From a virus, in the IMG/VR virus record IMGVR_UViG_3300032265_000712, positions 1-47,071 of that record: a stretch of 47,071 nt of DNA; one strand, written 5' to 3'. Under the pieces are notes generated by a model, which made no database searches, was not told where the DNA came from, and saw only the letters and a program-made list of their open reading frames with translations. The position numbers were made by a program, and so were the translations under genes. Positions 12,901-44,898 of the stretch are shown piece after piece; the stretch's first letter is position 1, and every line of letters begins with the position of its first letter.

Positions 12901-13450
12901 TTCTAAACCATTGCCACCGAGCTCTGACGAATTATATAATGCAATTTCACCAACTTTAAATTTAATTAAATCAATATCAGACGAAGTAATATACCATCCA
13001 GTAGTTTATAAGATATTGTTCGGTGCAAATGCTGTTTCTGAACTTCAAGCTAATTTTAAAGTAGTTAAAAATCCTAGCCAAGTAATCAGCGATAATGAAA
13101 TACAAGCAGGTGTATTGTCTGCCATGAATAGATTTTTTGCTTTAAATAATTGGGATTTTGGAGATACATTCTATTTTACAGAATTAGCAACTTATGTTGT
13201 TACTCAATTATCTCCTTATATTGTTAGCTTTGTTATTGTTCCAGTATTAACGACATCATATTTCGGTAGCTTGTATGAAATTAAATCAGCAGATAACGAA
13301 TTAGTAATTAACGGAGCAACAGTAGACAATATATTTGTAGTTTCAGGACTAACTTCTAACACATTAAACTCAGTGCCAGGTAACATTTTAAATTCATCAA
13401 TCACACAACAAAACATAACAAGTTCATCATACGGAGCAACTAATGGCTGA
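9968..13450 (+). CDS. 6: gp6-like baseplate wedge protein, enlarged
   Basis: Wedge protein forming the continuous ring of the baseplate. The N-terminal 130 residues match the gp6 family well, with YLALIDVIAYVGQSIAFRVD followed by LNARENFLELAERRDSILRLARM. It is 1160 residues against 660 in T4; the extra length falls mainly in beta-rich middle regions (about 480-950) that include FLLFTTNNEYYTITSRQQRY. The C-terminal domain from about 1000 (NPSQVISDNEIQAGVLSAMN) is typical of gp6/J-type dimerisation regions. The end overlaps the giant gene by eight bases, so the two are probably translated together. Assignment is strong for the N-terminus and by position. Confidence 0.92.
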   Translation: MSSTDRQNNLLVAQNWQKIYQSFKNADFTSYDFNNLRRTMIEYIRNNYPEDFNDYIESSEYLALIDVIAYVGQSIAFRVDLNARENFLELAERRDSILRLARMISYNANRNTSAKGLLKFTSVSTTESVIDSNGRDLTGQTITWNDSANLSWNDQFIRIINAAVPDTQQFGNPTNTATIYGIATQQYRFQASNTDVPVYNFTKTVAGTSMDFEITSTTFSGQDFIYEEPPLLGNHLGFVYRDDGKGAGSANSGFFLNFTQGTLNQGTFGISQPSTSESVNIDVTNINNTDVWLYSLDSTGLENNIWTQVPSLAGNNIIYNSLNKNIKNIYQVVSRAGDRISINFSDGTFGNLPLGNFRVYYRTSNGLTYTINPTDFRSITIDVLYLSRTNNIETLSITLSLQLSVSNSGPTESNTSIKTNAPQVYYTQNRMITGEDYNISPLTVSNEVAKVKAVNRTSSGISRYFDLTDPTGKYSATNLFATDGVIYQENFTNQTTFSYATQTDIEGIIYNIVFPILKLYNVRNFYYSNFLTQISNSLAVTWKSVTNETGLSTGYITDTNSIVYKVGSFTSNNLQYVTTGSLIKFVAPNGYYFDKTNSNKLTSYSYTIPEGGVSFIWAQVVSVVNDGTASGTGTLSTGLGPISFNTSIPTGSVISEILPKWRTVIDSSVITTMIDLIFSNKPFGLRYNIVTQSWQIIFESNLNISSSFSLSKQGDTTNQQQDASWFLLFTTNNEYYTITSRQQRYIFESDSQISFYYDSSNKIYDSNTDKVVTDNINILNINTVPDNTIPFTTDLLWDVVSEFTGKDGYIDSKKLVITFADTTNSGIVDNPELFLNIVNPPAIGETDQTILQKKYIVEQKYFISLGQEDYKYVDNSSQLVIILPNENSVGSLTQYNDGQYFYFVDTGVVKQLNLTTSTLNLSLDYKLYVGRDNLKFQYTHSADYESRVDPGPSNIIDIYVLTVGYDTQFRNWISGANISKPLPPSSDELYNAISPTLNLIKSISDEVIYHPVVYKILFGANAVSELQANFKVVKNPSQVISDNEIQAGVLSAMNRFFALNNWDFGDTFYFTELATYVVTQLSPYIVSFVIVPVLTTSYFGSLYEIKSADNELVINGATVDNIFVVSGLTSNTLNSVPGNILNSSITQQNITSSSYGATNG

Positions 13451-19400: not shown

Positions 19401-22400
19401 TCTAATTTTAAATTAGGATCTTATATTTGGGTAGGGTTTGTTGGCACCAGCTGGGAGATTTATAGATACTCTCCAACTTCAATTGATATAACTAGTGTGG
19501 CATTTGATTCTAAAAATAAAGAACTAGTGTTTACAACAGCAATTGATGTTACAGAGTTTGTAGTCGGAGACTATATTGCTATTGAAAATGTAGATTTTAA
19601 AGGATTTTATCGAGTTTCAGCAGTATTGTTGAATACGTTCACATTATCTGCACCATCTATTAAATCAATTACAGCTCCTGGAATTGGATCATTTATTCCT
19701 GTATTTAAATTAACTCCACAACTAGCACCAACTATTGACCAATTAGATTTAACTATTGCCCCAGACCGCGTAGCTAATGAACTTGCGTGGACTACTGACA
19801 GTGGTAACGGATATTGGGCGACTTGGCAATATAATACTGTATATTCTAAAACAACATTAGCTCCGATATTTTCTGTTCCTAATTTACAGTATGGCCGAGC
19901 AGTTGCGTCTGATGCGGCCGGCACAATTCTAGCAGTGTCAGATTCTAGCGGAACAATATCAGTTTATAACAAACCAGTTGCAGGTGCTTCTTGGATTTTT
20001 ATACAAAAAATCGAACCAGAATTTGTATCTATAAGTGATTCTAATACAATTTCTAATTTTAATTCTTCAGTTGCAATATCTCCTGACAGTAACTGGATGG
20101 CAATTGGTAGTCCCATGGTAGGTCACATTGTGACTAACTATAAAGGAGTATACAATACTTCCTCAATATACTCATACAAGCAAATAGTAACATATAACAA
20201 TGTATTGTATGAAGCTCTTAAAACAGTGCCAACAAATAAAACTCCGGCAACGTTTACAAAATATTGGAAACTAGCATCTACTATTTCAGTTGATTCTTCA
20301 GGAACAAACAATTCAGGTTTATTAGACGGCACAGCTCAAGGTGTGGTGTTTATCTACGAACGAGATATAGTAACAAACACATACGTTTTAAACACTTCAT
20401 TGACTAGCCCTGCTCCGATTGCATACCAACAGTTTGGGTTTTCACTAGCATTGTCAAATGATAAGCTATTTGTATCAGCAGTAGGCGATTCTAGTGGCAC
20501 AGGGCAAGTGTATCAAATTGATTATGCTATTAAAGATAGTGCCACGGCATTGTATAATCCAACTGGTAGCTCCGGAACTACATTGGTGCTTGGCGGAACT
20601 TTTAAAGCAATACTTACACTTGGAAGCTCAGTAATCCAACAAGTTAGTAATTTTACTAATCTTGATGTAGGCAGTTCAGTTATTGGAACAGGTATTCCTG
20701 ATAACACTAGTATTGTTAGTTTTAATCAAGGTGCCGGAACAATAACATTGTCAGCAAATGTAACTGCTTCTTCAATCGTTGTAAGCGGAAATACGATCCC
20801 AACAGTTATTACTTACGACGGCACAACACAACCATTACAAGTCGGAATGACAGTGTCTGGTCTTGGTTTTACTCAAGGGCAAAAAATTATCAGTATTGTT
20901 GATTCTCAAACAGTATTGCTTGATATGCCACCCGACGGCAATCCTTTTGGAAAACTAGTTTGTCAAATTAACGGTTGGAAATATCATAATTCATCAACTT
21001 TAGGGTTGTATAATAATTTAACAGCATCTGGTAATTTTGGATATGCATTGTCAATTAGTAGTGATTCGTCAGTGCTTGCAGTATCAGCACCTCAAGCTAA
21101 ACAAGTTTATTTCTTTGCTAATCAACAAGACATTATAGGTAATTTTATTGGAACATACACATTAGTTCAATCTCCTATCACTAGCACTGAATTGTTATTT
21201 GGTGATAGTATAAGTGTATCGGCATCTGGCAAGTATGTTGCAGTATCTTCTATGTATCATAATGATGTAAAGAATACCGCGTTAGGACAAGTAATAATTT
21301 ACAGTTTTGTAGATACATTATGGCAACCTTATCAAACTCTTGCTAATTTAAAACCTGAATCTGTTGAACTATTTGGAACAAAAGTAGCATTTATGGGAGA
21401 TAAGACACTGGCTGTGTTCAGTCAAAATGCCGATACTGATTTACAACAACCTTTGAATGACAGCACTTCGTTCGACGGCGGCCTAACAAGATTTATTACT
21501 CCAAATAAAAATAATGGAAGAGTTGATGTTTATGACAATTACAATAGTAATTGGATCTTCGGTGAAAGTTTAGATAATTTTAACATAACATCAGACAGAT
21601 ATGGCGCAAGTATAGCAGTTGGTGCAAATGAAATATTTGTTGGCGTTTCTAATGCGTTAAACAATGGTATTAATACTGGGGTTGTAGCAGAATATAGAAA
21701 AACTAATAATTCTTATAGTTGGAAAATTTTACATTCAGAGTCTGACAGGATTGATATTAGTAAAATTAAATCAGCGTTTTTATATAACAAGTCTACTAAC
21801 CAGCTTATAGATTACATAGATGTAATTGATCCTAGCCAAGGAAAAATTCCAGGACCTGCAGAAGAAGAATTAAAATACAAAACTTTTTATGACCCTGCAA
21901 CCTATTCGTATTCAAACGGAACTGCAACAGTTAATGTGGATAACGGAATGGCGTGGACTACTTCTCAAGTTGGCCGCCTATGGTGGGATTTACGAACTGC
22001 AAAATTTATCGAAAGTGTAACAGACGACAACAGTTATAATAATAGCAATTGGAATACTTTATTTCCCGGAGCAAGCATTGATATTTACGAATGGGTATCT
22101 ACACGATTAACTCCATCACAGTGGGACAGTCAAGCAGATACTATAGCCGGACTTACTCTTGGAATTAGTGGAAAGTCGCTGTATGGAGATGCAGTATACA
22201 GTTCAGTTAAACTTTATGATTCTTTAAGTAAAAAATTTACAACAATTTATTATTTCTGGGTTAAAAATAAAACACTAGTTCCTAATGTCACTAATAGACA
22301 TATGGCAGCAAGTGATGTAGCAAATCTAATAGCTAATCCTAGAGGATTTAATTATAGTTATTTGGCATTAACTTCACCTAACTCATTTAGTCTTGTTAAT

Positions 22401-25400
22401 GTAGCAAACAAATTACAAGATACTAATGTAGTGTTGTCTGTTAGATATTGGACTATTGACAATCAAAATATTCCTTCACATACCCAGTGGAAAATGATTA
22501 GCGAAGATCCTTCTACTATTATACCATCGGCGATTGAACAAAAATGGATTGATAGTTTATGCGGGAAAGATAATGCTGGCCGATTAGTTCCTGATCCAAG
22601 TTTACCTCCTAAGTTAAAATATGGAATTGAAAACAGACCTCGCCAAGGTATGTTTGTTAATAGATTTGAAGCACTTAAAGAAATTATTGAAAAAACTAAT
22701 TTAGAATTAATTAATATACAAATTGTTGGTAATGCAGACCTTACAAAATTAAATTCTTACGATGAAGAACCTAATTTGCTGTTAGGATTATATGATCAAG
22801 TTTTTGATACTGATGCAGAATTATCTTTTGCAAATATTGGAAATTTTAGCCAGGCTTCAATTACTCCTATAATTGTTAACGGACAAATTACAGGAGCAAA
22901 TATAGTATCTAGTGGAAAAGGCTATATTAATGCACCTTATGTTATTATTCAAGGTAACGGAACAGGTGCAATAGTTAAAACAATTTTAAATGCCTATGGA
23001 CAAGTTACAGGTGTAACAGTTATTTCAGGTGGCGAAGGTTACGATTCGTCAACTACTATGACTATACGTGGATTCGTTGCATTAGTTCATTCTGATTCTG
23101 AATCTTTCAACACATGGAGTCTGTGTTCATATTCAAATAAAATATGGTCAAGAATTCAAACACAAGCGTTTGATACTAGAAAATATTGGTCATATGCTGA
23201 TTGGTTTGCTTCCGGTTACAGTCAATTTACAGCCGCAGATTATGCAATTAATACTTTTGCAGATTTATACTCTATCAGCCCTAGTGTAGGAGAAATTGTA
23301 AAAATATTAACTAGTAATACCGGTTGGTTGTTATTAGAAAAATATGCAGATATCGTTTCAGTAGACTGGACAAAGAGTTATAAAGTAGTTGGCCAACAAA
23401 ACGGAACTATACAACTTAACTCTACATTATATAATACTGTTGGCACAACATATGGCTATGACGGAAATCTATATGATGCATCAGTTTTTGATAATTTTGC
23501 TTCTGTTGAATTACGAATTATTTTAGAATCATTAAAAAATAATATTTTTATAGGTAATCTTGCATCTAATTATTTAGGAATGTTTTTTACAAGCATTCGT
23601 TATATTCTTAGCGAGCAAACTTATGTTGACTGGATATTTAAAACAAGTTTTATTAAGGCACAACATAATGTAGGTTCTTTAGGACAACCTGCAACATATA
23701 AAAACGACAACTTAGCAGATTTTGAATCATATGTAGATGAAGTTAAACCTTATAGAACAAAAATTCGAGAATATGTAAGCAATTATTCCAATGTAGACAA
23801 TACTAATTCTGCTATATCAGATTTTGATTTGCAACCAGCTTATGAAAATAACTCTATTACAGTTGTAAATGCTACAGTAGAAAATGAACAAATCATTAAT
23901 AAAGACCAATCTTTAGCAGTGTATCCTTGGAAATTCTGGAAAGATAATTTATCATTCAGTGTAGTTGACGTAGTTATTACCGATAACGGATCTTTATATG
24001 AAAGCGAACCAGTTGTAAGATTTATAAGTAAATCCGGAATAGGCGCTACTGCAAGAGCATTTTTATCAAACGGTAAAGTTACTAGAATAGTTTTATTAAC
24101 TAAAGGCACTGGATATCTTAAAGCTCCTACAATTTTACTAGACGGGGGAGTTGGAGTTGGCGGAACTACAGCTAAAGCGGTTGCTATAATTGGAGAGAGT
24201 CCAGTTCGATCAACACTAGTAGGAATGAAATTTGATAGAATTTCTCCTACTTATTTTGTTACACAATTATCTGTGACAGAGACATTTACTGGAAATGGTA
24301 GTTTACTGCAATTTGCATTAAAATGGGCGCCAGACATTAGAATAGGCAAATCAACAGTTCTTATCGACGGAGTTGAAGCACTACGAAACAGTTATAAATT
24401 AGTAGTTACAAGTTCGACCAGCTTAGGATATACAACGTATGCCGGCTCGCTAATATTTAATACTGCTCCGGGAACATACTTAATAAATTCTACAATAACT
24501 GTAACCTATTTAAAAGATTGGTCTACATTAAATGCCTCTGACAGAATACAATATTATTATAATCCTGCCAGTGGTGAGCTTGGCAAAGATCTTGCACAGT
24601 TAATGACAGGAGTTGACTACGGTGGTGTAATAGTAGACGGTCTAGGATTTGATATTTCCCAAGGATGGGATAATGTTCCATTCTACAGTGATCCGTGGGA
24701 TAGTGCCGACCCTGATTTTGACGATTACATTATAACTTATACAACACCTACAACTAGTCCATTGGCATTTCCTGTTGAAAATATTCCATTCCCTTCAACT
24801 TGGATGCCTGGTGATTTGCTAAACATTTACTATTATTATACAGATGTTCATACATACACATCTGACGGAGTTGAAACTTCTTATTCATTCAGTGTATATG
24901 ATAACACTCTTACAGTAACAGTTTCAAAAGATGCAACAGCAACTGGCACAAATGCGCAAAGTTCAATTGTATTACAATTAGTAGATGCTACTGGTATTAG
25001 TGTTGGCGATAAAGTATCTATAGTTCAACCAAATACTATAACAGACATTACTTATGTAAAGGCTGTTAACACAGTAGCACATACAGTAACATTAACACAG
25101 ATGTTATATAATAATATACCATCAAATTCTATTATAACATTTACAAGAACTCTAAAAAAGAACATTGACTATACAGTTAATTTACCTGCTAGTATAGTAG
25201 TATTAACGCAACCAATTGCATCTGGTAGTGTAATTACTATATCATCACCTTATCAGCAAATTAAAATTGACGCAGAAGATTTTGACGGCACATTATCACC
25301 AACAAATCCAAATGCAGTAATGTCAACGTATACATTTACAGGTAATAACGATGTAATAACTGTTCCTTCGGGCATTACTATAAATCCAGGCGATCAGATT

Positions 25401-28136
25401 ATTATTAGAAAAATAACAAGTGATGGATCAGTTGCACCTTTAGCAGACGATTACGATACGTTAATTCAAGGTGGAGATCTAGCATATACTAGTGCAACTG
25501 GGTTGTTAGCTGAAGATATTATTATTGACGGTGACGGATTTGTTACCCCTACATCTAGTCCTGCTACAGAAGAAGTAGTTCCTGGACAGCTATTTGACAC
25601 ATTATCTATTAAAGTATACGATAAACCTAATGCAGGTTCTGCAAATATTATTGCCGATAGTTACCATGCTGACGGGATTAATACTGATTATGCGTTAACG
25701 CAAATGCCAAATAGCGCAACAGCAGTAGTTGTCAAAATAAACGGACAAATTAAAACAATTGGTGTCGATTATACAGTTAATTATAAGAAACAATTAATTA
25801 GTTTTACAACGCCTCCGACAATAAACAGTTTAGTAACAATATTAAGTTTTGGATTTAACGGATCTAACATATTAGATATTGACTATTTTGTTGGAAACGG
25901 TGCAACTTTAGAATTTATTACCAATGCAGAATGGTTGCCAACAGTAACTTATCTAATATATGTTAACGGTTTAGTTTCTTCAGCTGAAATTTTCCAAACT
26001 GATTATACATACAATAGTCCAAATAGGGTAGGTATTAGATTTAATACTCCGCCATCTATCGGAGATTTAATTAATTTTGTTATTGTATCTGGAAATCAAC
26101 AAACATTCTCAGTAATGAAAACAGAAAGATTTAGGACTGTAGGAACTACTACTGTATATAATCTTAATAATTCAATCGGCCAATTGATTCCTAGCGAAGC
26201 AAATATGCTTGTAAGAGTAGACCAACTAATACTGCAAGGCCCATCTAACAGTTATTATACGATTGATTCAGAAAATTTAAATTATAATATCGATTATAAT
26301 CATAATTTACCATATAGCGTATCAGTTTCAGATGTGCTAGTCTATGCCGATGGTAATTTATTAACTCCTGGCACTAATTATGTTATTGATTTATCTGGAA
26401 TTACTGTTACTATTACTTTAGAAGTTTATCAACTGTATGTTGGAAAAACACTATTAGTAAGTATTATTACTAATTCAGATTATTTTTACAATGACGGCCA
26501 ACTGACATTAACAACTGTATATCCATCAAATACACTAGTTGAAGTTACAAGTTTTTATAATCATAATATTTTAGATATTCAACAAACTGAATTTACAGTT
26601 TCAGCTTCGAATACATTTACGCCTAACACATTGGCTTATTTTAATTGGACCGATCTAACAGGAGGATTGATCCAATTAGATAGACCAGTGGTTAACAGCC
26701 AATATGTTTGGGTTACAAAAAATAAAATATTGCTAACACCCGAAGTTGATTATGTATTAACAAACAATAATCATGCAGTAAAATTAATATTACCTCTTAA
26801 TATAGGTGATAAAATTAGTTTAATGACTTACAGCAGTAACATATTAACATATGGCACTGCCTACATGCAATTTAAAGACATGTTAAATCGCGTTCACTTT
26901 AAACGCCTAAGCAAAAATAAACAAACAAGATTAGCAACAGCATTACATTGGAATGATACTTCTATAACAGTAGATGATGCAAGTAATTTTGCAGTGCCCA
27001 ACCCGGCTGGTAATAAACCTGGAATAATAGAAATTCGTGGGGAACGTATTGAATATTTTAGAATATCCGGTAATGTTTTAAGTCAGTTGCGTCGAGGAAC
27101 ATTAGGAACTGGCGCTGCCAATTCTTATCCTATTGGAACATTTGTTCAAGAAATTGGAATAACTGAAACTATTCCTTATAACGAAGCTCCAGTTGTGCAA
27201 CAACTAATATCTACAGGATCAAATATTGTTAATTTAAATTTTGTCCCAACTAAAGGACAACCTGATATTACACGACCTGATTATGATTCAACTGGAATAG
27301 TATCTTGGTTTAGCAACTTTGGTTATAACTATGTTGGAAATTATAACGGAGCAACCGGCTACGATTACAATGACGTTGTAATTTACAATAATGCTTATTA
27401 TTATTGTGTAAAACCAGTTCCAGTGCCTTCAGGTAGAACACTAACTGTATTATATACACCGGCAAGTGTTGTATATTGGGCACTATATCCTACAACTATA
27501 CCTGTAGGATATGGACAAGCAAACAATATAGAAGTATTCATCGGAGGTTATGACGATACTACAGTGTGGACTAGCGCAACTACATATTCAGCTGGAACTA
27601 TTATTACTCAAGGATCTTATACATACACTTGTTTAACAACACACACTAGTGGAGCAACTTTCTTTGATGCAGTTACTACAGTTACTATTAATAGCGACGG
27701 AACAACTACGACAATAGCTACAGGGGTTGACTCGTCAACAGTTTGGAAATTCTTTGTAGGAAATATTCGTTTAAAGAAACAACCTTATAAAGTCTTTAAT
27801 GTAAACAATGCTCCAACTAGTCCTGCCGGTGATGTTGCTTTTGACGCAGATTTTTCTGTAGACGGTTCTTCTGCATCAATAAGATTAACAACAGCATTAC
27901 CATATGGAACAAGAATTACTATTGTTCAGCGAACTGGACAAGCATGGGATGGAGATTATGGAACTAATATTAATGTTGTGCATGGCACTAGCAATGTAAC
28001 AACATTCTTAAAATCCACGCCAGGAATATGGTATGAAAATGACGCTAAATATGCAACTAAGTTAGACATTAAGTCAACATTTGACAGCACAATAACTTCA
28101 TTTGATACTACTAACATAACAATTGATCAAGGATAA
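13443..28136 (+). CDS. giant 4897-aa baseplate/tail structural protein in the gp7 position
   Basis: One uninterrupted 14.7-kb frame directly after gp6, where T4 has wedge protein gp7 (1032 aa). Visible parts in order: a conserved head (1-150, with YSWDPHIDWDKFVNFQNYYW); a cupredoxin-like domain (about 160-264); many beta-sandwich modules; CBM5/12-like segments near 1429-1478, 1562-1608 and 1742-1790; seven FG-GAP-like blades (about 2150-2760), with another CBM-like segment (2227-2283) inserted; glycine-rich KGY/GTGY modules (about 3140-3210, 3503-3583); a helix-rich YVDEVKPYRTKIREYVS region near 3430; about eight NG/DY-type beta-modules (3613-4466); a conserved GERIEYF region (4473-4585); and two more CBM-like segments (about 4633-4770). 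No peptidase, lysozyme or nuclease motif was noticed. A structural role is strongly implied by position; receptor or glycan binding is inference. Confidence 0.9.
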   Translation: MADSTTPDRSSSYNFLPNFYQTPANKKFTQATVDQLVQPGSVTKVSGYIGRKTAKSASRKDVYIQAVTNQRENYQLEPAITVTDKLGNNTFFKDYIDYINQINVFGGNTDNHSRLNKQEFYSWDPHIDWDKFVNFQNYYWLPSGPDVITVAGQQEAITSTYTVRLDPNQFGYDFVFTPDGLTPNPTLKLYRGQTYTFDITSPGNPFSIKTLRTPGGLNRYTTPEFTQAAIESGKLTITIPYNAPDILYYVSETNIDFGGVFQILSITENTFLDVGSDIVGKQFYKMSNGEQLSNGMKLQFIGNVTPVSYSTGQYYVEGVGSSIQLIKASDLDLISRYTTSESVLFDSDNFDSLPFSDATALATAIDYHVINRASVDLNPWTRYNRWFHKDVINTSATLNGNVASLDQTARAKRPIIEFEAGLKLYNFGTHALQDVDLIDDFTTDVFSTIEGSTGYNVDGIALAQGQRILFTADTDSTVANNIYRVEIVDVKHISISGHPQYQIHLVLDSMPVENSVVLVKNGQSNQGKSYWFDGSVWNVTQQKLTTNQPPLFDIVDDNGISFGDKTTYPGSSFIGTKLFSYKQGTGVADSNLGFALSYKNINNIGDIVFNFDIVLDSFEYKISSDIFTVKINTGYLVDYSPLTREISFVNGWQKSNAVYTQAAVRVYKDITNLNNFDIDIFDDISNLDDLVVRVYVNGIRLDKTQWNIISGAVYKQLVLTTDLSPTDLLSIRAFASQPINDNGYYEIPINLQNNPLNSLMGDFTLGEVIDHTNSIIDNLDGSLGVTFVGTFPGAGNLRDLGNISQYGTKFVQHSGPASLSIYHITNSSSNVIRSIEESRDDYGKFKRNFISAIKNLSSDVTDVPGSVDAILQHLNQNKQKTGPYYFTDMVPYGASVKRELTVVDYRIKTYPLSNVFTLDTLSNKSVLVYRNGIQMVHGADYTFDSSLAMINISNNTPLETGDVITTVEYDSTDGCFVPSTPTKLGIWPAYTPKLYLDTSLVNPVMMIQGHDGSQVLAYGDFRDNFILELEKRIFNNIKVKYDPEIFNIFDFIPSYNRTTDYSLQEFNDTLAPQFYKWTSLISSDFTKPLNYDRNNPFTFNYTGHAAPDGRLTPGYWRGIYRWIYDTDRPNIRPWEMLGITIEPTWWTSVYGPAPYTSDNIPMWQDIANGLLKEPGVPPITLSQFAKPFLMNHLPVDESGNLVDPISSKTANGGIIQTYGGDFVFGDVSPIEATWRRGSYFPFGMLITFLLLQPSKVFGLVLDRSRIVRNMAGHIVASNTKLPITPDTLLLPSIYSSSTRIQTAGIINYIVDYISSDILKSYSQYATDLKTITTQLSYRIGAFTSKDQFNLLLDSKSPLSTGSIFVPQEDYSIFLNTSSPISKIVYSALIITRFSDGFEVKGYNQTSPYFYYYNYIKSGPKITIGGISESYSIWGPNNQYVAGFVVKNGNGYYRVKTSHVSIDTFNGSYFQLLPTLPVIGGQSALTRILWDRSQPIIAPYGTKFNSIQETYDFIVGYGEYLKDQGFVFDDFNLNLQTVSNWETSAKEFLFWTTQNWAAGQQKWEDWLPNKDYLAGNIVQYDGDYYQASQKVSSNNAFQYNYFVKLSGLSTVGSSVISLSPAANAVTFNSPYAIVDDITNPFNGYQIFKVDGTAFEPQFISSYRKDNRVTYSPTTTDGIFGATFYLLQKEQVVLLNNSTIFNDVIYNPTSGYRQERIKVSGYTTIGWYGSFDSPGFIFDEAKINQWSAWTDYHLGDIVVYQQFYYAANEFVSGSELFDPAQWNRLSSKPFAKIIPNWTNLATQFQDFYSVDVDSFDSAQQTMAHHLIGYQKRQYLDNIIQDPVSEFKFYQGMIREKGTQNVLNKLFDVLSADNEESLKFYEEWALRVGKYGSSNAFQEIEFILDESKFKTNPQSIQLLETNSDTTSGVSDFNIRQAPTDLYLKPLGYNGNPWPTVKNYTPYLRTAGFAREHEVTAIVTYKTDILSLDISNFKLGSYIWVGFVGTSWEIYRYSPTSIDITSVAFDSKNKELVFTTAIDVTEFVVGDYIAIENVDFKGFYRVSAVLLNTFTLSAPSIKSITAPGIGSFIPVFKLTPQLAPTIDQLDLTIAPDRVANELAWTTDSGNGYWATWQYNTVYSKTTLAPIFSVPNLQYGRAVASDAAGTILAVSDSSGTISVYNKPVAGASWIFIQKIEPEFVSISDSNTISNFNSSVAISPDSNWMAIGSPMVGHIVTNYKGVYNTSSIYSYKQIVTYNNVLYEALKTVPTNKTPATFTKYWKLASTISVDSSGTNNSGLLDGTAQGVVFIYERDIVTNTYVLNTSLTSPAPIAYQQFGFSLALSNDKLFVSAVGDSSGTGQVYQIDYAIKDSATALYNPTGSSGTTLVLGGTFKAILTLGSSVIQQVSNFTNLDVGSSVIGTGIPDNTSIVSFNQGAGTITLSANVTASSIVVSGNTIPTVITYDGTTQPLQVGMTVSGLGFTQGQKIISIVDSQTVLLDMPPDGNPFGKLVCQINGWKYHNSSTLGLYNNLTASGNFGYALSISSDSSVLAVSAPQAKQVYFFANQQDIIGNFIGTYTLVQSPITSTELLFGDSISVSASGKYVAVSSMYHNDVKNTALGQVIIYSFVDTLWQPYQTLANLKPESVELFGTKVAFMGDKTLAVFSQNADTDLQQPLNDSTSFDGGLTRFITPNKNNGRVDVYDNYNSNWIFGESLDNFNITSDRYGASIAVGANEIFVGVSNALNNGINTGVVAEYRKTNNSYSWKILHSESDRIDISKIKSAFLYNKSTNQLIDYIDVIDPSQGKIPGPAEEELKYKTFYDPATYSYSNGTATVNVDNGMAWTTSQVGRLWWDLRTAKFIESVTDDNSYNNSNWNTLFPGASIDIYEWVSTRLTPSQWDSQADTIAGLTLGISGKSLYGDAVYSSVKLYDSLSKKFTTIYYFWVKNKTLVPNVTNRHMAASDVANLIANPRGFNYSYLALTSPNSFSLVNVANKLQDTNVVLSVRYWTIDNQNIPSHTQWKMISEDPSTIIPSAIEQKWIDSLCGKDNAGRLVPDPSLPPKLKYGIENRPRQGMFVNRFEALKEIIEKTNLELINIQIVGNADLTKLNSYDEEPNLLLGLYDQVFDTDAELSFANIGNFSQASITPIIVNGQITGANIVSSGKGYINAPYVIIQGNGTGAIVKTILNAYGQVTGVTVISGGEGYDSSTTMTIRGFVALVHSDSESFNTWSLCSYSNKIWSRIQTQAFDTRKYWSYADWFASGYSQFTAADYAINTFADLYSISPSVGEIVKILTSNTGWLLLEKYADIVSVDWTKSYKVVGQQNGTIQLNSTLYNTVGTTYGYDGNLYDASVFDNFASVELRIILESLKNNIFIGNLASNYLGMFFTSIRYILSEQTYVDWIFKTSFIKAQHNVGSLGQPATYKNDNLADFESYVDEVKPYRTKIREYVSNYSNVDNTNSAISDFDLQPAYENNSITVVNATVENEQIINKDQSLAVYPWKFWKDNLSFSVVDVVITDNGSLYESEPVVRFISKSGIGATARAFLSNGKVTRIVLLTKGTGYLKAPTILLDGGVGVGGTTAKAVAIIGESPVRSTLVGMKFDRISPTYFVTQLSVTETFTGNGSLLQFALKWAPDIRIGKSTVLIDGVEALRNSYKLVVTSSTSLGYTTYAGSLIFNTAPGTYLINSTITVTYLKDWSTLNASDRIQYYYNPASGELGKDLAQLMTGVDYGGVIVDGLGFDISQGWDNVPFYSDPWDSADPDFDDYIITYTTPTTSPLAFPVENIPFPSTWMPGDLLNIYYYYTDVHTYTSDGVETSYSFSVYDNTLTVTVSKDATATGTNAQSSIVLQLVDATGISVGDKVSIVQPNTITDITYVKAVNTVAHTVTLTQMLYNNIPSNSIITFTRTLKKNIDYTVNLPASIVVLTQPIASGSVITISSPYQQIKIDAEDFDGTLSPTNPNAVMSTYTFTGNNDVITVPSGITINPGDQIIIRKITSDGSVAPLADDYDTLIQGGDLAYTSATGLLAEDIIIDGDGFVTPTSSPATEEVVPGQLFDTLSIKVYDKPNAGSANIIADSYHADGINTDYALTQMPNSATAVVVKINGQIKTIGVDYTVNYKKQLISFTTPPTINSLVTILSFGFNGSNILDIDYFVGNGATLEFITNAEWLPTVTYLIYVNGLVSSAEIFQTDYTYNSPNRVGIRFNTPPSIGDLINFVIVSGNQQTFSVMKTERFRTVGTTTVYNLNNSIGQLIPSEANMLVRVDQLILQGPSNSYYTIDSENLNYNIDYNHNLPYSVSVSDVLVYADGNLLTPGTNYVIDLSGITVTITLEVYQLYVGKTLLVSIITNSDYFYNDGQLTLTTVYPSNTLVEVTSFYNHNILDIQQTEFTVSASNTFTPNTLAYFNWTDLTGGLIQLDRPVVNSQYVWVTKNKILLTPEVDYVLTNNNHAVKLILPLNIGDKISLMTYSSNILTYGTAYMQFKDMLNRVHFKRLSKNKQTRLATALHWNDTSITVDDASNFAVPNPAGNKPGIIEIRGERIEYFRISGNVLSQLRRGTLGTGAANSYPIGTFVQEIGITETIPYNEAPVVQQLISTGSNIVNLNFVPTKGQPDITRPDYDSTGIVSWFSNFGYNYVGNYNGATGYDYNDVVIYNNAYYYCVKPVPVPSGRTLTVLYTPASVVYWALYPTTIPVGYGQANNIEVFIGGYDDTTVWTSATTYSAGTIITQGSYTYTCLTTHTSGATFFDAVTTVTINSDGTTTTIATGVDSSTVWKFFVGNIRLKKQPYKVFNVNNAPTSPAGDVAFDADFSVDGSSASIRLTTALPYGTRITIVQRTGQAWDGDYGTNINVVHGTSNVTTFLKSTPGIWYENDAKYATKLDIKSTFDSTITSFDTTNITIDQG
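19890..21720 (+). other. seven-blade FG-GAP-like propeller region inside the giant gene
   Basis: Seven copies of a blade core of the type F/Y-G-x-S-hydrophobic-x-hydrophobic-S-x-D-x-x-x-hydrophobic-A-V begin near residues 2155, 2209, 2331, 2532, 2586, 2643 and 2720. Examples are FGYALSISSDSSVLAVSAP and FGDSISVSASGKYVAVSS. A CBM-like segment is inserted between blades 2 and 3 and a beta-rich double repeat between blades 3 and 4. The fold is inferred from the repeat. Confidence 0.7.
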
Positions 28137-39262: not shown

Positions 39263-39978
39263 TGTATGATATAGCATTTATATCCTATGATGAGAAAACA
39301 GCAAATGAAAGGCTGTATGATTTATTATTTCGATTAAATCCTCCTAATGTAGTTGTTAGAGTCAACGGGGTAAAAGGTATACACTTAGCTCACGTAGAGG
39401 CAGCAAAACTAGTGTCTACTTCAATGTTTTATGTAGTTGACGCTGATGCTAAAATTCTTCCAACTTTTAAATTTAATTTAAAATTAGATACTAGTGAAGA
39501 AGATATTGTGCATGTTTGGCGTAGTCGCAACCCAGTTAATAATTTAGAATACGGGTATGGAGGAGTTAAACTGCTACCTACAAATTTAACTTTAAATATG
39601 AATTTATCTAATCCGGATATGACTACAAGTATATCAACTAGATTTAAAGTCATGCCCGAAGTGTCTAATATTACAGCATTTAATGTAGACCCTATGAGCA
39701 CTTGGCGTAGTGCATTTAGGGAATGTGCCAAACTAGCCAGTAGGGTAATCACTGATCAGTATGATGCAGAAACTGAACAAAGATTAGCTGAATGGAGATT
39801 TAATTCAAATACAGCACCATTTGCTGAGTATGCCCGTGCCGGTGCTAGTGCAGGAGAATGGTTTGGCAGGACATATAAAACAGACAAAAAAATGCTAGCC
39901 AATATAAATGATTATAATTGGCTAGCATCGGAATATTACGGGCATATTGAACAATACCCGCCCGAGACTTTTAAGTAA
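39262..39978 (+). CDS. glycosyltransferase-like protein, pair B copy 2
   Basis: A 238-residue paralogue of the preceding gene: IAFISYDEKTANERLYDLLF, VNGVKGIHLAHVEAAKL, MFYVVDADAKILPTF (DAD as DxD motif), YGYGGVKLL and WRSAFRECAKLAS align with copy 1 in the same order. It is about 60 residues shorter, having lost part of the C-terminal region. It starts one base inside the previous stop (TAATG) and ends convergently with thyX, overlapping it by eight bases. A perfect 12-base inverted repeat lies near its 3' end. Confidence 0.7.
   Translation: MYDIAFISYDEKTANERLYDLLFRLNPPNVVVRVNGVKGIHLAHVEAAKLVSTSMFYVVDADAKILPTFKFNLKLDTSEEDIVHVWRSRNPVNNLEYGYGGVKLLPTNLTLNMNLSNPDMTTSISTRFKVMPEVSNITAFNVDPMSTWRSAFRECAKLASRVITDQYDAETEQRLAEWRFNSNTAPFAEYARAGASAGEWFGRTYKTDKKMLANINDYNWLASEYYGHIEQYPPETFK
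39892..39928 (+). repeat. perfect 12-base inverted repeat with 13-base loop
   Basis: ATGCTAGCCAAT at 39892-39903 and its exact reverse complement at 39917-39928, inside the coding sequence and 50 bases before its stop. There is no U-run after either arm, so it is not a standard terminator. It could act as an RNA hairpin between the convergent operons. Confidence 0.7.
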
Positions 39979-40654
39979 CAAACTCTCCAGCCATCGGAAA
40001 TATAGTAGATATTACTTGGGCACACGCTTTAGCTACTTCTTGATGTTCTAATTGGGTTCCATTAGACGAGCGCAGTTCGATAAAATGTATCCAAGAACGT
40101 AGTGTTCCGTTCATATAAATTCTACTTTCAATAAGTCCTTCTGGTAACACAGCACGAGCTTGTTCTTTAGCAATACCTTTGCTAATAGCCCATTCATATG
40201 CATCACGACTTTGTTTAATAACAAGGTCTTGCATACGTTCCCACTGATATGCAATAAACCTATCTTCGTCGTTATTTTGAATATCTAGCTCTATACTGTT
40301 TTGTCTATTTTTGGTATCCTGCTTGCGAGCATCTCTATATACAAAGTTGAGATCCTTTGTTGGGTCAGCATAACGCTGGGAGAATTCTTGAAAGCTGAAA
40401 CTTCTGTGTCTAAGGATTTGTCTTGCGATATCTCTTGTAGTAGTAATCTCGATGCAGGCGGACACCATTTCGAGAGGACTCCAATGTTGGTGCTTAATAA
40501 GATATCGTATGAGCTTTTCTGAAGTTTCGGTATTGAGTTGATTACTTGGGTTTGACACTCTTGCACAGTAGGCAATGAGTTCTTGCGCATCTGCAATTCC
40601 CATGCTTGCAAATTCTTTAGTTGGCTGGCTATAACTAAGCAATTTAACATTCAT
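39971..40654 (-). CDS. thyX: ThyX flavin-dependent thymidylate synthase
   Basis: Makes dTMP from dUMP with methylene-tetrahydrofolate, FAD and NADPH, supplying thymidine for the AT-rich phage genome. The family signature RHRX7S is intact (RHR at 82-84, Ser at 92, in RHRSFSFQEFSQRYAD), with HQHWSPLEM at 55-63 and the substrate-binding ending MNGTLRSWIHFIELRS. At 227 residues it has normal family length. The start codon immediately follows the TAA of the upstream gene. It is the last gene of the minus-strand operon and overlaps the convergent glycosyltransferase by eight bases. Confidence 0.97.
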   Translation of the reverse strand: MNVKLLSYSQPTKEFASMGIADAQELIAYCARVSNPSNQLNTETSEKLIRYLIKHQHWSPLEMVSACIEITTTRDIARQILRHRSFSFQEFSQRYADPTKDLNFVYRDARKQDTKNRQNSIELDIQNNDEDRFIAYQWERMQDLVIKQSRDAYEWAISKGIAKEQARAVLPEGLIESRIYMNGTLRSWIHFIELRSSNGTQLEHQEVAKACAQVISTIFPMAGEFVT

Positions 40655-40972
40655 TTACAATTTCTTTCTTTTTAAAAATTTATTAGTGCTATTCTCAATA
40701 TCTTTTTTAACACGATCAGTATCTAATTTAAAATTTATGCTTTCAATACTATCTTCATAAGAATTTAAAAGTTCTGACAGCGTTCCTTCAAAAGACACCC
40801 ACCCATCTCGTTTGGTTTTTGCTGTTATTTTTATTTCCCAAATCTTGCCATCTTTAAATTGAATTAAAACCGCGTGAAGATATTTGATAGGTAAAACATT
40901 TAGTTCTACCTCTCCAAATACTTCTGGCCAACAATCTATGACTTCTTTGGGAAGAACTCTTCCCTGAATCAT
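40655..40972 (-). CDS. conserved phage protein of unknown function, 105 aa
   Basis: A soluble protein beginning MIQGRVLPKEVIDCWPEVFG, with a beta-rich middle (LHAVLIQFKDGKIWEIKI) and a charged helical, Lys-rich C-terminus. The style matches small proteins often seen in T4-like phages of aquatic bacteria, but I know no function. It starts in the stop of the preceding gene (TAATG) and runs directly into thyX, so expression of the two is linked. Confidence 0.75.
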   Translation of the reverse strand: MIQGRVLPKEVIDCWPEVFGEVELNVLPIKYLHAVLIQFKDGKIWEIKITAKTKRDGWVSFEGTLSELLNSYEDSIESINFKLDTDRVKKDIENSTNKFLKRKKL

Positions 40973-41628
40973 TATGCTGGTTCTTTAGTTTTTTTCTTAG
41001 TAGGAACTAATGCTTCTGCTTGGCGTCTAAGTTCGGCAGCTTCTTTGCTTAATCGATCTGCATCACTACGAAATTTCTTAGCTTGATCTTCCGGACTAAG
41101 AATAACTTTGGCCGTAACTGCTGGTTGTTCGTCCTCATTAATAGAAGCCGAAGTTGTCCTAGTAGGATCATCTTTTGACGATGCTTTAACTTCTTGAACT
41201 TGAGCAACTTCTTTTACTTCAGCAGTGTCTTGTGAACCAGGCTTGATTGATAGTTCATCTACTGGAACTCCGCGTTGTTCAGCGATAATTTGATTAAGCT
41301 CTGATAACAACACGGAAACACCGGGTGCAGGAATCATTTCAACATCGGCGGTAGAAACTTTAACTAAACGACCCTTAACATGCAAACTTGGCAACATTCT
41401 GCTTCCATCTGGAAATTGTGTTCGATCGAGAGCTTCAGCAAACTCGTATGCTTCTTGAGCGGCAGGACTTTCTACTAGATTAATTATAGCATTATGATAT
41501 TGATCGTCAAGGCTTTCTGTTGGAACTACTAGTGCGCTATATGCATCACCGGGTAGGGTTCGATATGCAACTAACACTTTTTTGTTAGTGCCTATCATCC
41601 GTCCTACGTGTTTTAAATTTTGTGCCAT
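40972..41628 (-). CDS. conserved phage protein with disordered, helical C-terminal half
   Basis: A 218-residue protein. Residues 1-130 form a compact domain (MAQNLKHVGRMIGTNKKVLV, LPGDAYSALVVPTESLDDQY, LVESPAAQEAYEFAEAL, FPDGSRMLPSLHVKGRL). Residues 130-185 are a Ser/Thr/Glu-rich linker, followed by a helix with heptad-like pattern (AKKFRSDADRLSKEAAELRR) and a Lys-rich end. This domain type recurs in T4-like cyanophage and pelagiphage genomes as far as I recall, without a known function. The GGAG site overlaps the end of the upstream gene. Confidence 0.75.
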   Translation of the reverse strand: MAQNLKHVGRMIGTNKKVLVAYRTLPGDAYSALVVPTESLDDQYHNAIINLVESPAAQEAYEFAEALDRTQFPDGSRMLPSLHVKGRLVKVSTADVEMIPAPGVSVLLSELNQIIAEQRGVPVDELSIKPGSQDTAEVKEVAQVQEVKASSKDDPTRTTSASINEDEQPAVTAKVILSPEDQAKKFRSDADRLSKEAAELRRQAEALVPTKKKTKEPA

Positions 41629-41629
41629 A

Positions 41630-41875
41630 TTAAGCTCCAGTTGGTGCGGCAGGTTGTGCGGCTTTTTGTGCTTCTGCTTGTTTTGCTACTGTGTCTAAAA
41701 AGTTTGTTAACTTGATATAAGTTTGACCAATGGTAACCATTTCGTTTGGTTTAAATGCGCCACGTGAGCTAGCAATATCAATAATAACCTTCATAGCATT
41801 TAAATCGTTAATGCTAAGATCAGCCGGACCTTCTGCTTGTGGTGCTTCTTGTGTTTGAGTAACTTCGTCAGTCAT
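41630..41875 (-). CDS. RGAFK-type small protein, tandem copy 2
   Basis: An 81-residue acidic protein with an Ala/Gln/Pro-rich tail. The core LSINDLNAMKVIIDIASSRG then AFKPNEMVTIGQTYIKLTNF matches the neighbouring upstream gene position by position, so the two are tandem duplicates. It is probably all-helical, without membrane segments. Function is unknown; a scaffold or adaptor is possible but unsupported. It begins seven bases after GGAG, and the preceding gene ends two bases upstream. Confidence 0.75.
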   Translation of the reverse strand: MTDEVTQTQEAPQAEGPADLSINDLNAMKVIIDIASSRGAFKPNEMVTIGQTYIKLTNFLDTVAKQAEAQKAAQPAAPTGA

Positions 41876-41877
41876 TA

Positions 41878-42153
41878 TTATTCTCCTTGGAATTGATATG
41901 TGCCTTCGGGAGCGGCTTCGTCAGTTGGCTCGCTTGTTTCTGGCGGAACTAAAGTTTTGATAAATGCTGTTAAACGATCATACAAAGTGCCAGCCGCAGT
42001 CATTTCTTCTGCTTTAAACGCACCTCGTTGTGTAACAACATTAATTAAATTTTGAATGTCAATTAAATCTTGTAAAGATAACATTGCTTGTGGTTGATTA
42101 GTTTCAGCTGTAGCTTCAGTATCAACGGTTGTATTTTCTACTGTGTCAGTCAT
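41878..42153 (-). CDS. RGAFK-type small protein, tandem copy 1
   Basis: A 91-residue acidic protein with a Thr/Glu-rich N-terminal tail and a core LSLQDLIDIQNLINVVTQRG then AFKAEEMTAAGTLYDRLTAF. The core aligns without gaps to the next gene, with RGAFK, EM and G-Y-L-T-F positions conserved. Both termini are low-complexity and differ between the copies. It begins after a strong AAGGAG site. Unknown function; see the finding on the duplication. Confidence 0.75.
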   Translation of the reverse strand: MTDTVENTTVDTEATAETNQPQAMLSLQDLIDIQNLINVVTQRGAFKAEEMTAAGTLYDRLTAFIKTLVPPETSEPTDEAAPEGTYQFQGE

Positions 42154-42191: not shown

Positions 42192-42470
42192 TTATAAATG
42201 TGGACAGGCAATTGTGAAGAAGCTGAGTTCTTTTTCGGATTCAAACCCTATGCGAGTAGTGTATATTATAGTGTTTGTATTATCTAATGAAATGCTTTGA
42301 CCTATGTAGTATCTACTATTTAAATTTTGTTTAATCCATGAATTAATGGATTTAATTAAATGCGGATTATACTTGTCTAATGTTGTGTATTTAAAATGAG
42401 GAGCGGCAAACTCAACCCTACGTAAGTTAAAATAATTTAAAGGATTGGGTTTGCCGTTTTTTAAAGCCAT
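42192..42470 (-). CDS. conserved phage protein of unknown function, 92 aa
   Basis: A small alpha/beta protein, basic at the N-terminus (MALKNGKPNPLNYFNLRRVE), with a central helix (LIKSINSWIKQNLNSRYYIG) and a C-terminal beta part (NTIIYTTRIGFESEKELSFF). No cysteine pair or catalytic pattern points to a function. Its start overlaps the stop of the VWA-metallopeptidase gene as TAATG, so it is co-translated with that gene and may work with it. Confidence 0.72.
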   Translation of the reverse strand: MALKNGKPNPLNYFNLRRVEFAAPHFKYTTLDKYNPHLIKSINSWIKQNLNSRYYIGQSISLDNTNTIIYTTRIGFESEKELSFFTIACPHL

Positions 42471-43651
42471 TATGCCGTTTCCGTAGCAAATTCGTAATAC
42501 GCATATTCTCCGAATGGAGGAACAATGGTATTATTACCATGGATAATGAATACTGTATCACAGTAGTTTTCATCACCCCAGCTACCCCAGGGATAACCGT
42601 CTGTGAACATGATAAACTTCTTAGGCTGAATATCATTTTCCTTCATGTATTCCCAGTTGGCATCAAACTCAGTTCCGCCACCGCCCATAACTTCGTAGTT
42701 ATCGAAATCGTCCATGGTGTAACCATCATAGTCAGCTTCATTGTATACACGAGTATCAAAACACCAAACTTTAATTTTAAAGTCTTTATACTCTTGCATA
42801 ATGCCTTTAATTTCTGTTAAGAAATCTTTTGCTTGTTCATCTCCGATACTACCAGACATATCAATTGCTACGCAGATGTCGATAGTTTCTTGGAATTGAG
42901 TTCCAGGCAATACAGCGTTCATGTGCCAGCCCTTACGGTTAGGACGCATAAAAGAGTAGTCGTTCTTAATAGTGCTTTGAATTTGTTGACGTAAAATTTC
43001 ACGCCAATTCATTTTAGGCTCTGTTAAGTCCTTAATCATTCTTTGAACACTTGCAGGAGTATTTCCTGCACCCGCCGCCTGAGCCGCCGCAATAGTCGCT
43101 TCGCGAATCTCGTCACGGATTTGTTTTAGTTCTTCTTTGCTATACTTTGGCTGTCCATCTTTGCCTTTTTCGCCCCAGTCAATGTGATCATCTAACAATT
43201 GGCCTAGAGCTTGCAATTCTTGCTCATCCATCTTTTCGTAGATGTCGTCATACACTTGCTCAGCTGACCAGTTGTAATATTTTTGGTCATGGAAGATTTC
43301 TGGCTCAGCAGGTTTCTCTCCAATGCGGTCTCTAATCAATTGTCCGTTAACACAATAGTCAGCGGCAATGTTAAAGATACGAGGATCACGCCCTTCTCGA
43401 CGACCCATGTGATCAAATACGTTATGTAGGATCTCGTGTGCAATAACAAACTCAACTTGTTTTACAGTCATTTTGTTAAAGAAATCACGGTTAAAATAAA
43501 TGGTTCTGCCATCTGTTGCGGCAGTGGTCATCCATTCTGAGCCTTCTTCAATTTTTAAGCGTGTAGCCATGTTGCCAAAGAAAGGATGGCGAAGTAGTAG
43601 ACCCACACGGGCTACGATAATTTTGTCGATAACTGGATCTGTATGTGACAT
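42470..43651 (-). CDS. VWA-domain protein with N-terminal zinc-metallopeptidase-like domain (DUF2201 type)
   Basis: A 393-residue two-domain protein. The N-terminal domain has the zinc motif HEILH at 72-76, followed by FDHMGRREGRDPRIFNIAAD, with the further conserved N/AAD region expected in this family. A helical linker with basic residues runs about 130-250. From about 255 a von Willebrand A domain carries the MIDAS motif DMSGS (264-268) and a later FTDGYPWG. This architecture commonly pairs with MoxR ATPases, and the MoxR gene is indeed directly upstream. The pair probably works as a chaperone-like or assembly-remodelling module; the target is unknown. It has its own sigma70 promoter. Confidence 0.92.
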   Translation of the reverse strand: MSHTDPVIDKIIVARVGLLLRHPFFGNMATRLKIEEGSEWMTTAATDGRTIYFNRDFFNKMTVKQVEFVIAHEILHNVFDHMGRREGRDPRIFNIAADYCVNGQLIRDRIGEKPAEPEIFHDQKYYNWSAEQVYDDIYEKMDEQELQALGQLLDDHIDWGEKGKDGQPKYSKEELKQIRDEIREATIAAAQAAGAGNTPASVQRMIKDLTEPKMNWREILRQQIQSTIKNDYSFMRPNRKGWHMNAVLPGTQFQETIDICVAIDMSGSIGDEQAKDFLTEIKGIMQEYKDFKIKVWCFDTRVYNEADYDGYTMDDFDNYEVMGGGGTEFDANWEYMKENDIQPKKFIMFTDGYPWGSWGDENYCDTVFIIHGNNTIVPPFGEYAYYEFATETA

Positions 43652-43680
43652 TTATGCTCCTGAATGTTTACTATGTATAT

Positions 43681-43709
43681 AGTATAACACCACCCTAAGG
43701 TGGTGTCAA
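43681..43709 (-). promoter_or_regulatory. sigma70-type promoter for the VWA-metallopeptidase gene
   Basis: On the minus strand TTGACA (43709-43704), a 17-base spacer, then TATACT (43686-43681). The transcript would start near 43673 and reach the start codon at 43651 after an AGGAG site. Most of the spacer is an inverted repeat. Confidence 0.85.
43687..43706. repeat. 8-base inverted repeat filling the spacer of the VWA promoter
   Basis: ACACCACC-CTAA-GGTGGTGT, a perfect palindrome lying between and partly over the -35 box. It is the most GC-rich spot in the gap and could be an operator or, less well, the terminator of the upstream MoxR gene (no U-run follows). Confidence 0.75.
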
Positions 43710-43725
43710 ATAGTGTTAAACCAAA

Positions 43726-44814
43726 TTACTTTTCAGTTGCGGCTGAAATGTATTTGCCAAACTTAGCATGGAAATCATCAAAACACTTGATCTCATCTGG
43801 ATCCAAAGGCAACTTGTAACTAGACAATGCCAATTTAGTTCCCATGATAACCAATTCTGTTTCAAAGTTATTCATCATAAACTCAAAGAAACAGTTAACT
43901 TGGTCATTCCAATTTTTAGCTTTCTTTTCGCAAGCATCTTTGAGCTCGTAGCACAATGATACAGTTAAAGAATACATGGCACTAATTTCTTTAGAATCCA
44001 TTTTCTTAACTTTGCCTGACAAGATATCAGTTGGGTTTGGCATCTTGCTAGCAATCTTACGATGCGCCATAAAGCTAACAGCAAGACCTTCACCGACTGA
44101 ACCAGCTGTTAAGTCTGCCAAAGTGCTTTCGTCAGTGTCATTGTCTTCCAATAACTCACTTACAAATGACCAGCTACGTGGAGTAGCAAATGCACGTGAG
44201 CTAGATTTTGGATCAAAATCATACAAGCTCTTTTTGCTAAAAGTCAAAAAGCCTACGACATCCTTATGGACTTTATTTTCAGTAGCCCAGTCAAACCAGT
44301 CATCCCAGTCAACTGCTAGTTCCAAGTGAACAAAACGGTTAGCCAACGGAGCAGGCATACGATAAGTAACACCCTTGTCAGTTTCACGGTTTCCAGCGGC
44401 AACCATTACTACGTTATCTGGCAATTCGTATGTGCCAACACAACGATTCAATACCAATTGATAAGCCGCGGCTTGAACACTAGGTGCGGCACTATTCATT
44501 TCATCTAAGAACAATACAATATTCTTATGTTGTTTAGCAAATTCTTTGCTAGGCAATTCGCTAGGTGGTGCCCAACGCATTGTGCCATCATTGCTGTCAA
44601 AATATGGGATACCTTTAATATCGGTAGGCTCCCACAAGCTCAAACGCACATCGATAACATGAGCATCAAGCTCTGCACCTAGTTGTTTGATAATATCGGA
44701 TTTACCAATTCCGGGAGGACCCCACATAAAAATTGGACGTTTGTTTTTGAACGCCTTACGCAAACTGTTTTTTGCAGTTTTGGGTCCAACTGTGCGACTG
44801 GTAATTTCGGCCAT
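43726..44814 (-). CDS. MoxR-type AAA+ ATPase
   Basis: A 362-residue AAA+ ATPase. Walker A GPPGIGKS lies at 32-39, Walker B LFLDE at 101-105, and a sensor-1 asparagine in VMVAAGNRE at about 142. WEPTDIKGIPYF and the PSVQAAAYQLVLNRCVGTYEL stretch (shown in parts) are typical of the MoxR/RavA group. These ATPases usually act on a VWA partner and help mature or remodel protein complexes. The VWA protein next door is the expected partner. It has a full-consensus sigma70 promoter of its own, so it can be expressed independently of the upstream genes. Confidence 0.92.
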   Translation of the reverse strand: MAEITSRTVGPKTAKNSLRKAFKNKRPIFMWGPPGIGKSDIIKQLGAELDAHVIDVRLSLWEPTDIKGIPYFDSNDGTMRWAPPSELPSKEFAKQHKNIVLFLDEMNSAAPSVQAAAYQLVLNRCVGTYELPDNVVMVAAGNRETDKGVTYRMPAPLANRFVHLELAVDWDDWFDWATENKVHKDVVGFLTFSKKSLYDFDPKSSSRAFATPRSWSFVSELLEDNDTDESTLADLTAGSVGEGLAVSFMAHRKIASKMPNPTDILSGKVKKMDSKEISAMYSLTVSLCYELKDACEKKAKNWNDQVNCFFEFMMNNFETELVIMGTKLALSSYKLPLDPDEIKCFDDFHAKFGKYISAATEK

Positions 44815-44869: not shown

Positions 44870-44898
44870 ATTATACAGCTATGTCTTGAAAGTGTCAA
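44870..44898 (-). promoter_or_regulatory. full-consensus sigma70 promoter for the MoxR gene
   Basis: Minus strand TTGACA (44898-44893), exactly 17 bases, then TATAAT (44875-44870). A leader of about 50 bases precedes the ATG at 44814, with an AGGAAG ribosome-binding site. Confidence 0.9.

Follow-up and report, generated by a model that had tools for sequence, protein, structure and literature searches.

What does a phage do with a MoxR-type ATPase, a VWA protein fused to a metallopeptidase domain and a small protein coupled to the latter? The question arises from three consecutive genes in an IMG/VR virus record of 47,071 bases (the window, the whole stretch of DNA analysed). Baseplate and tail genes on the plus strand and a late sigma factor on the minus strand confirm the phage setting of the window, in which a single open reading frame of 4,897 aa (13443-28136, plus strand) occupies part of the baseplate/tail-fibre region. 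The first-pass annotation had described the genes as a MoxR-VWA chaperone-type pair with a 92-residue protein coupled to its VWA member through TAATG. All three open reading frames were recovered, the overlap is exact (AAACGGCATAATGGC), the 92-aa frame starting within the VWA stop codon, and the pair itself is borne out by Pfam and PHROG domains and by motifs (Table 1). The order MoxR, VWA, 92-aa was kept in all IMG/VR relatives with enough flanking sequence, and the arrangement is therefore not a matter of chance.

Table 1. Positions in the window of the module, its motifs and regulatory elements, and the downstream block
Feature	Position	Strand	Details
MoxR AAA+ ATPase gene	43726-44814	minus	362 aa
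Metallopeptidase-VWA fusion gene	42470-43651	minus	393 aa; DUF2201_N + DUF2201
Coupled protein gene	42192-42470	minus	92 aa
Walker A	44698-44721	minus	GPPGIGKS, MoxR residues 32-39
Walker B	44500-44514	minus	LFLDE, MoxR residues 101-105
HEXXH zinc-binding motif	43424-43438	minus	HEILH, VWA residues 72-76, in predicted helix
MIDAS DxSxS	42848-42862	minus	DMSGS, VWA residues 264-268; completed by T327 and D351
MoxR promoter, sigma70 type	44870-44898	minus	TTGACA-17-TATAAT, 12/12
VWA promoter, sigma70 type	43681-43709	minus	TTGACA-17-TATACT, 11/12, TG extended -10
Hairpin filling VWA promoter spacer	43685-43708	minus	stem-loop, 10-bp stem
phrog_13789 protein, conserved downstream block	41878-42153	minus	91 aa
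phrog_13789 paralogue	41630-41875	minus	81 aa
phrog_15894 protein	40972-41628	minus	218 aa; homologue of 121Q gp566
Thymidylate synthase	39971-40654	minus	block end, facing tail-fibre genes

Domains and conserved sites of the ATPase and its VWA partner

The 362-aa protein matched the Pfam families AAA (1.3e-7) and AAA_3 (MoxR family; 1.1e-6), both above cut-off, the latter with 28.9 bits against a cut-off of 27. It also matched the ATPase family phrog_1297 (2.5e-101) and is 54% identical to the ATPase of Pseudomonas phage 30-3/PA5oct. Residues G37 and K38 of Walker A and D104 and E105 of Walker B are invariant across eight divergent phages, and GPPGIGKS was found in all 75 unique close homologues. 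The Walker motifs together with the AAA_3-class domain mark the protein as a MoxR-type AAA+ ATPase, for which a hexameric ring and ATPase activity are predicted.

In the 393-aa partner, the "putative metallopeptidase domain" DUF2201_N (E = 1e-43; 150.2 bits against a cut-off of 23.2) and the "VWA-like" domain DUF2201 (E = 2e-14; 54.4 bits against 26.4) both exceeded their Pfam cut-offs within a single chain, and the protein matched phrog_1314 (4.7e-114). The predicted VWA fold matches VWA domains, among them the MIDAS of MDN1/Rea1. The name given to phrog_1314 in PHROGs and in many phage and GenBank records is "HNH endonuclease"; no HNH family was detected in Pfam at E values up to 0.1, and that function was rejected. 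The family is DUF2201 metallopeptidase-VWA, for which the public label is misleading.

A set of 22 divergent homologues (19 phage and 3 plasmid) was used to gauge how far the functional sites are conserved. The first-pass annotation had claimed an intact zinc site and had named loss of the HEXXH or MIDAS residues in most relatives as evidence against its proposal; the HExxH was intact in 21 of the 22 and the DxSxS of the MIDAS in all of them, so that this objection falls away, and the zinc site of the window protein, a HEILH form of the conserved motif, is probably intact. An Asp located 22 residues past the second zinc His was likewise present in 22 of 22, and D264, S266, S268, T327 and D351 of the MIDAS were invariant in the divergent homologues compared, so that catalytic and MIDAS residues are retained at 25 to 45% identity. 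Among 91 unique close homologues, HExxH and MIDAS were retained in every one, and only a single sequence failed to match the search pattern for the Asp motif. Candidates for the third zinc ligand are D98, which is invariant, and H81, which is nearly so (RHph_Y2_6 has D). The identity of the module as a predicted MoxR ring with a zincin-VWA partner is thus well supported at the level of sequence.

The one divergent homologue with an altered zinc motif is that of phage Atu_ph07 (L003:4953-6242), in which HQILH replaces HEXXH and the catalytic Glu has thus been lost in nature. Proteolysis is consequently not essential in every phage, and the zincin domain may be noncatalytic in some of them. The module could accordingly be a pure co-chaperone, in which the zincin domain binds zinc and serves a structural or substrate-holding role while the machine only remodels its target and has no need of cleavage. 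The Atu_ph07 substitution, which should abolish catalysis, accompanies a MIDAS and a MoxR protein that are both kept, and the available portions of the literature describe NorQD and the p618/p892 pair of ATV (Acidianus two-tailed virus) as acting without a peptidase (PMC7824862, PMC4124505, PMC9976466). However, an HExxH as pervasive as that seen in the divergent and close homologues, combined with the invariant Asp, usually signals catalysis, and we consider a machine that never cleaves unlikely.

Coupling of the 92-aa gene and an unusual promoter

A scan of IMG/VR viral contigs identified 360 loci encoding relatives of the 92-aa protein, of which 80 were retained. In the loci examined, the gene was always 3' of the VWA gene, and in the few VWA loci that lacked it the contig ends at that point. 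The two genes overlap by 1 nt in 115 of 152 loci and by 4 nt in 22, with some loci representing the same contig twice, and in five of the 152 they are separated by an insertion of 531 to 537 nt. Extra genes were seen between VWA and the small gene in L061, L062, L063 and L068 and between MoxR and VWA in L033; by eye, one type of inserted gene is methyltransferase-like and the other 2OG-Fe(II) oxygenase-like, with no significant Pfam match for either. The 92-aa frame has a median dN/dS of about 0.07, similar to that of MoxR, and is under strong purifying selection. More distant marine relatives, with VWA proteins 61 to 64% identical to that of the window, occur in contigs assigned to Puniceispirillum and Neomarinimicrobiota bins and in additional IMG/VR contigs; they retain a 93-aa homologue, which either abuts the VWA gene or overlaps it. 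One of the Neomarinimicrobiota-binned contigs (L193; PBPT01000016.1, 335 kb) carries the same phage gene block and could derive from a jumbo phage whose sequence was placed in a bacterial bin.

Conserved features of the 92-aa family include W45, an R-aromatic-aromatic-x-G stretch and GFE...F..ACP. Pfam and PHROG searches gave no match for the protein. An AlphaFold2 model has a beta-alpha-beta-beta-alpha fold (pLDDT 83), and fold searches with it returned nothing at E values of 0.001 or lower in either of two libraries. A Macro_2 assignment, made for 18 of 61 family members with a best E value of 0.008, was judged to be noise. No convincing homologue was found in sequenced phages with queries from either end of the family; weak matches in 121Q and phi30-3 were partial and far from the pair. 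GTDB genomes yielded none with the close 92-aa alignment as the query, and the GTDB relatives came up only through the VWA query.

Outside this lineage, the position after the VWA gene is occupied by an unrelated small gene, of 92 aa in locus L182 and 94 aa in Atu_ph07, or by none, as in 121Q, where no small gene precedes the phrog_13789 gene. Homology with the 94-aa gene in the same slot of Atu_ph07 was rejected, there being no similarity. The three-gene order noted by the first-pass annotation holds in IMG/VR relatives with enough flank and breaks down in other lineages, where the slot holds unrelated small genes. Since those genes are unrelated, the 92-aa protein is at most a lineage-specific accessory: the gene is real and tightly coupled to VWA, yet it is no general part of the machine, which weakens the earlier suggestion of a substrate or adaptor.

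Both the MoxR and the VWA gene have sigma70-type promoters that are conserved in relatives, that of MoxR scoring at least 11/12 in 72 of 73 unique relatives. In the VWA promoter, the 17-nt spacer itself forms an inverted repeat around a tetraloop that is commonly TTCG, and the MoxR-VWA intergenic stretch has an RNA minimum free energy of -19.5 kcal/mol (z, -2.9). Across 34 aligned relatives, standard pairs made up 99.4% of the pair cells of the hairpin and four pairs had changed on both sides, with a covariation score of 0.346 compared with 0.080 after shuffling and a maximum of 0.119 in slid versions. Within the MoxR-VWA interval, 137 of the 138 matches to the promoter consensus contained the palindrome, versus 0 of 56 elsewhere in those loci. 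Rfam returned nothing for the intergenic region. In marine relatives, the two elements lie side by side in this interval, first a hairpin behind MoxR and next to it a TTGACA-17-TATAAT promoter, and a hairpin is likewise found there in 121Q, K64-1 and Atu_ph07. Read most simply, these arrangements would mean that a hairpin at the end of the MoxR transcript shifted into the VWA promoter; termination by it is putative, because no T-run follows the hairpin in the lineage of the window.

These features suggest a tentative proposal specific to this lineage, which we regard as rather doubtful taken as a whole. The 92-aa protein would serve the VWA-peptidase specifically, as its adaptor, inhibitor or substrate, with overlapping translation keeping the ratio of the two constant. 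How much VWA is made relative to MoxR would be set by a fused 29-nt element that acts as the VWA promoter in DNA and as the MoxR 3'-end hairpin in RNA.

Distribution, gene neighbourhood and the probable target

About 1.5% of sequenced phage records contain the pair, which is among the core genes of the N4-like phages. VWA-peptidase homologues were detected by tblastn in 754 of 50,697 phage records, all at less than 60% identity, and MoxR homologues occur in 814. Seventeen named phages were picked for encoding the VWA-peptidase (N4-like, Vequintavirinae, jumbo, cyanophage and roseophage); all 17 encode MoxR at E values of 1.5e-68 or lower, and in most the two genes are adjacent or one to three genes apart. 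Greater distances were seen in 30-3/PA5oct and CRP-7; in DrSchubert the genes occupy opposite strands with several kilobases between them, and in NINP13076 tens of kilobases intervene. The three plasmid homologues have an ATPase gene adjacent or nearby. The sequences thus show directly the domains, the conservation of their catalytic and metal sites, the joint occurrence of MoxR and VWA and the coupling of genes.

From these observations we infer complex formation, proteolysis, a target and a role for the 92-aa protein, as follows. The hexameric MoxR ATPase would engage the VWA protein, whose MIDAS would grip a phage protein complex; ATP hydrolysis would remodel the gripped complex, and the peptidase domain would cleave, or at least bind, a segment exposed by it. 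The most likely target would be one of the large structural assemblies of the phage (the tail, the baseplate or an ejected protein). Expression would start in early or mid infection from host-type promoters, and the 92-aa protein would be a lineage-specific accessory co-made with VWA through overlapping translation. The account we favour, at about an even chance of being correct, is that the module uses ATP to remodel a structural assembly of the phage, with cleavage likely and virion morphogenesis the most likely setting.

Gene neighbourhood is consistent with such a target. Escherichia coli jumbo phage 121Q shares with the window the order MoxR, VWA, phrog_13789, phrog_15894 and thymidylate synthase facing tail-fibre genes, although the two thymidylate synthases are too dissimilar to match each other. 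The phrog_13789 gene is present as two neighbouring small paralogues in the window versus one (gp565), directly after the VWA gene, in 121Q. The 121Q pair comes directly after several consecutive genes with structural annotations and precedes long tail-fibre genes, and in S-TIM5 the pair lies between Hsp20 and a structural gene.

Virion data point in the same direction for the ATPase. The available part of the phAPEC6 paper reports a virion-associated "ATPase," gp265c, of 49.52 kDa by mass spectrometry. With 121Q, a near-identical relative, used in place of phAPEC6, MoxR (gp563) computes to 49.51 kDa, and the masses of the phrog_15894 protein (25.03 in phAPEC6 versus 25.02 in 121Q) and of thymidylate synthase (35.51 in both) also correspond; by mass and order, the three virion proteins probably equate with these 121Q products. 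The presence of thymidylate synthase in the same preparation means that detection can reflect carry-over. The accessible portion of the phAPEC6 virion table does not list the VWA protein. The record of PA5oct MoxR (gp149) carries an ESI-MS/MS note. The available virion-protein passages on the N4-like phages CB1 and RPP1 do not name a gp24/gp25-type pair.

Timing bears on the main rival, in which a pair expressed early or in mid infection remodels or cleaves a host complex, for instance to switch off a process or a defence of the host, and plays no part in the virion. The T4 late octamer (TATAAATA) occurs 0 times in the window versus 10 expected by shuffling. ATAAATA lies 26 to 27 nt before three virion gene starts (9942, 28839 and 33303, plus strand) and is possibly a variant late promoter. 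Because the pair has host-type promoters instead of ATAAATA elements, and because the homologous N4 pair, gp24/gp25, belongs to the middle genes, a role in virion assembly is not required by the timing. Near-consensus, conserved sigma70 promoters on both genes, the middle-gene status of the N4 pair and its position near DNA-replication genes (e.g., helicase and DNA polymerase) in several N4-like phages would all suit a takeover of the host. Core conservation in N4-like phages of unrelated hosts, however, fits a shared phage substrate better; the structural neighbours in jumbo phages and the detection of MoxR in two virion data sets (phAPEC6 and PA5oct, as far as the available sources go) also argue against it, as does the lack of any match for the VWA protein in a defence-system library. 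A host target is thus possible but rather unlikely. A literature search returned no genetic or biochemical test and no experimental function of the pair in any tailed phage; the available passages of a CRISPRi-ART paper that includes N4 concern rIIA/rIIB, not gp24/gp25.

Relationship to known MoxR-VWA systems

On a cellular replicon, Synechocystis pSYSA has a MoxR gene directly before a metallopeptidase-VWA gene with intact motifs, as in the window, but at 27% identity and with a different small ORF next. RavA/ViaA, NorQ/NorD, CbbQ/CbbO and midasin likewise combine an AAA+ ring with a MIDAS-bearing VWA partner; their targets are cellular, and to our knowledge their partners lack a DUF2201_N peptidase domain. 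NorQ/NorD shows how a VWA protein binds to a MoxR ring (PMC9976466). That system, which serves nitric oxide reductase, is also the analogue for insertion of a metal cofactor into a phage or host enzyme, cofactor insertion having been among the suggestions of the first-pass annotation. Beyond this mechanistic analogy (PMC9976466) the sequences offered no support for it; no linked metalloenzyme partner accompanied the pair across the lineages examined and its variable neighbours are structural, nucleotide-metabolism or small unknown genes; cofactor insertion is very improbable.

Among viruses, p618/p892 of ATV is a MoxR-VWA pair for which interaction and ATPase stimulation have been measured and which has been assigned to tail development (PMC4124505). 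Compared by description, it resembles the window in pairing a viral MoxR ATPase with a VWA partner; it differs in belonging to an archaeal virus and in having no peptidase domain, according to the available part of PMC7824862. N4 gp24/gp25, listed among N4-like core genes (PMC4193335, PMC7650795), are a homologous adjacent pair (32% and 28% identity to the window proteins) with HEXXH and MIDAS intact. In N4, a dCTP deaminase gene follows where the window has the 92-aa gene, and the pair is transcribed by a phage RNA polymerase, whereas the window pair has host-type promoters. With catalytic and MIDAS residues pinned down and the pair carried by the model phages N4 and 121Q, its function is open to experiment.

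The closest description is that of Iyer et al. (2021), in whose group 2.2 jumbo phages a MoxR-vWA pair is "fused to a N-terminal metallopeptidase domain" and, as a proposal and not an experiment, is linked in the available text to virion assembly with peptidolytic processing (PMC7824862). The window shares the fusion in the VWA partner and the MoxR partner, and the 121Q neighbourhood is also alike, but the accessible description mentions no coupled 92-aa gene. The jumbo relatives examined here are without a 92-aa homologue, and unlike in the window their MoxR-VWA spacer hairpin has no promoter around it. A putative ATPase-controlled protease in a phage is therefore less of a novelty than the first-pass annotation had supposed, the fusion, the pairing and the virion-assembly idea having been published (PMC7824862, in the part available) and the pair being that of N4 gp24/gp25. 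Because the pair was already known from jumbo phages and N4, the window adds only details: new here are the conserved, lineage-specific 92-aa gene after VWA and the unusual promoter-hairpin, both of which are handles in an uncultured lineage.
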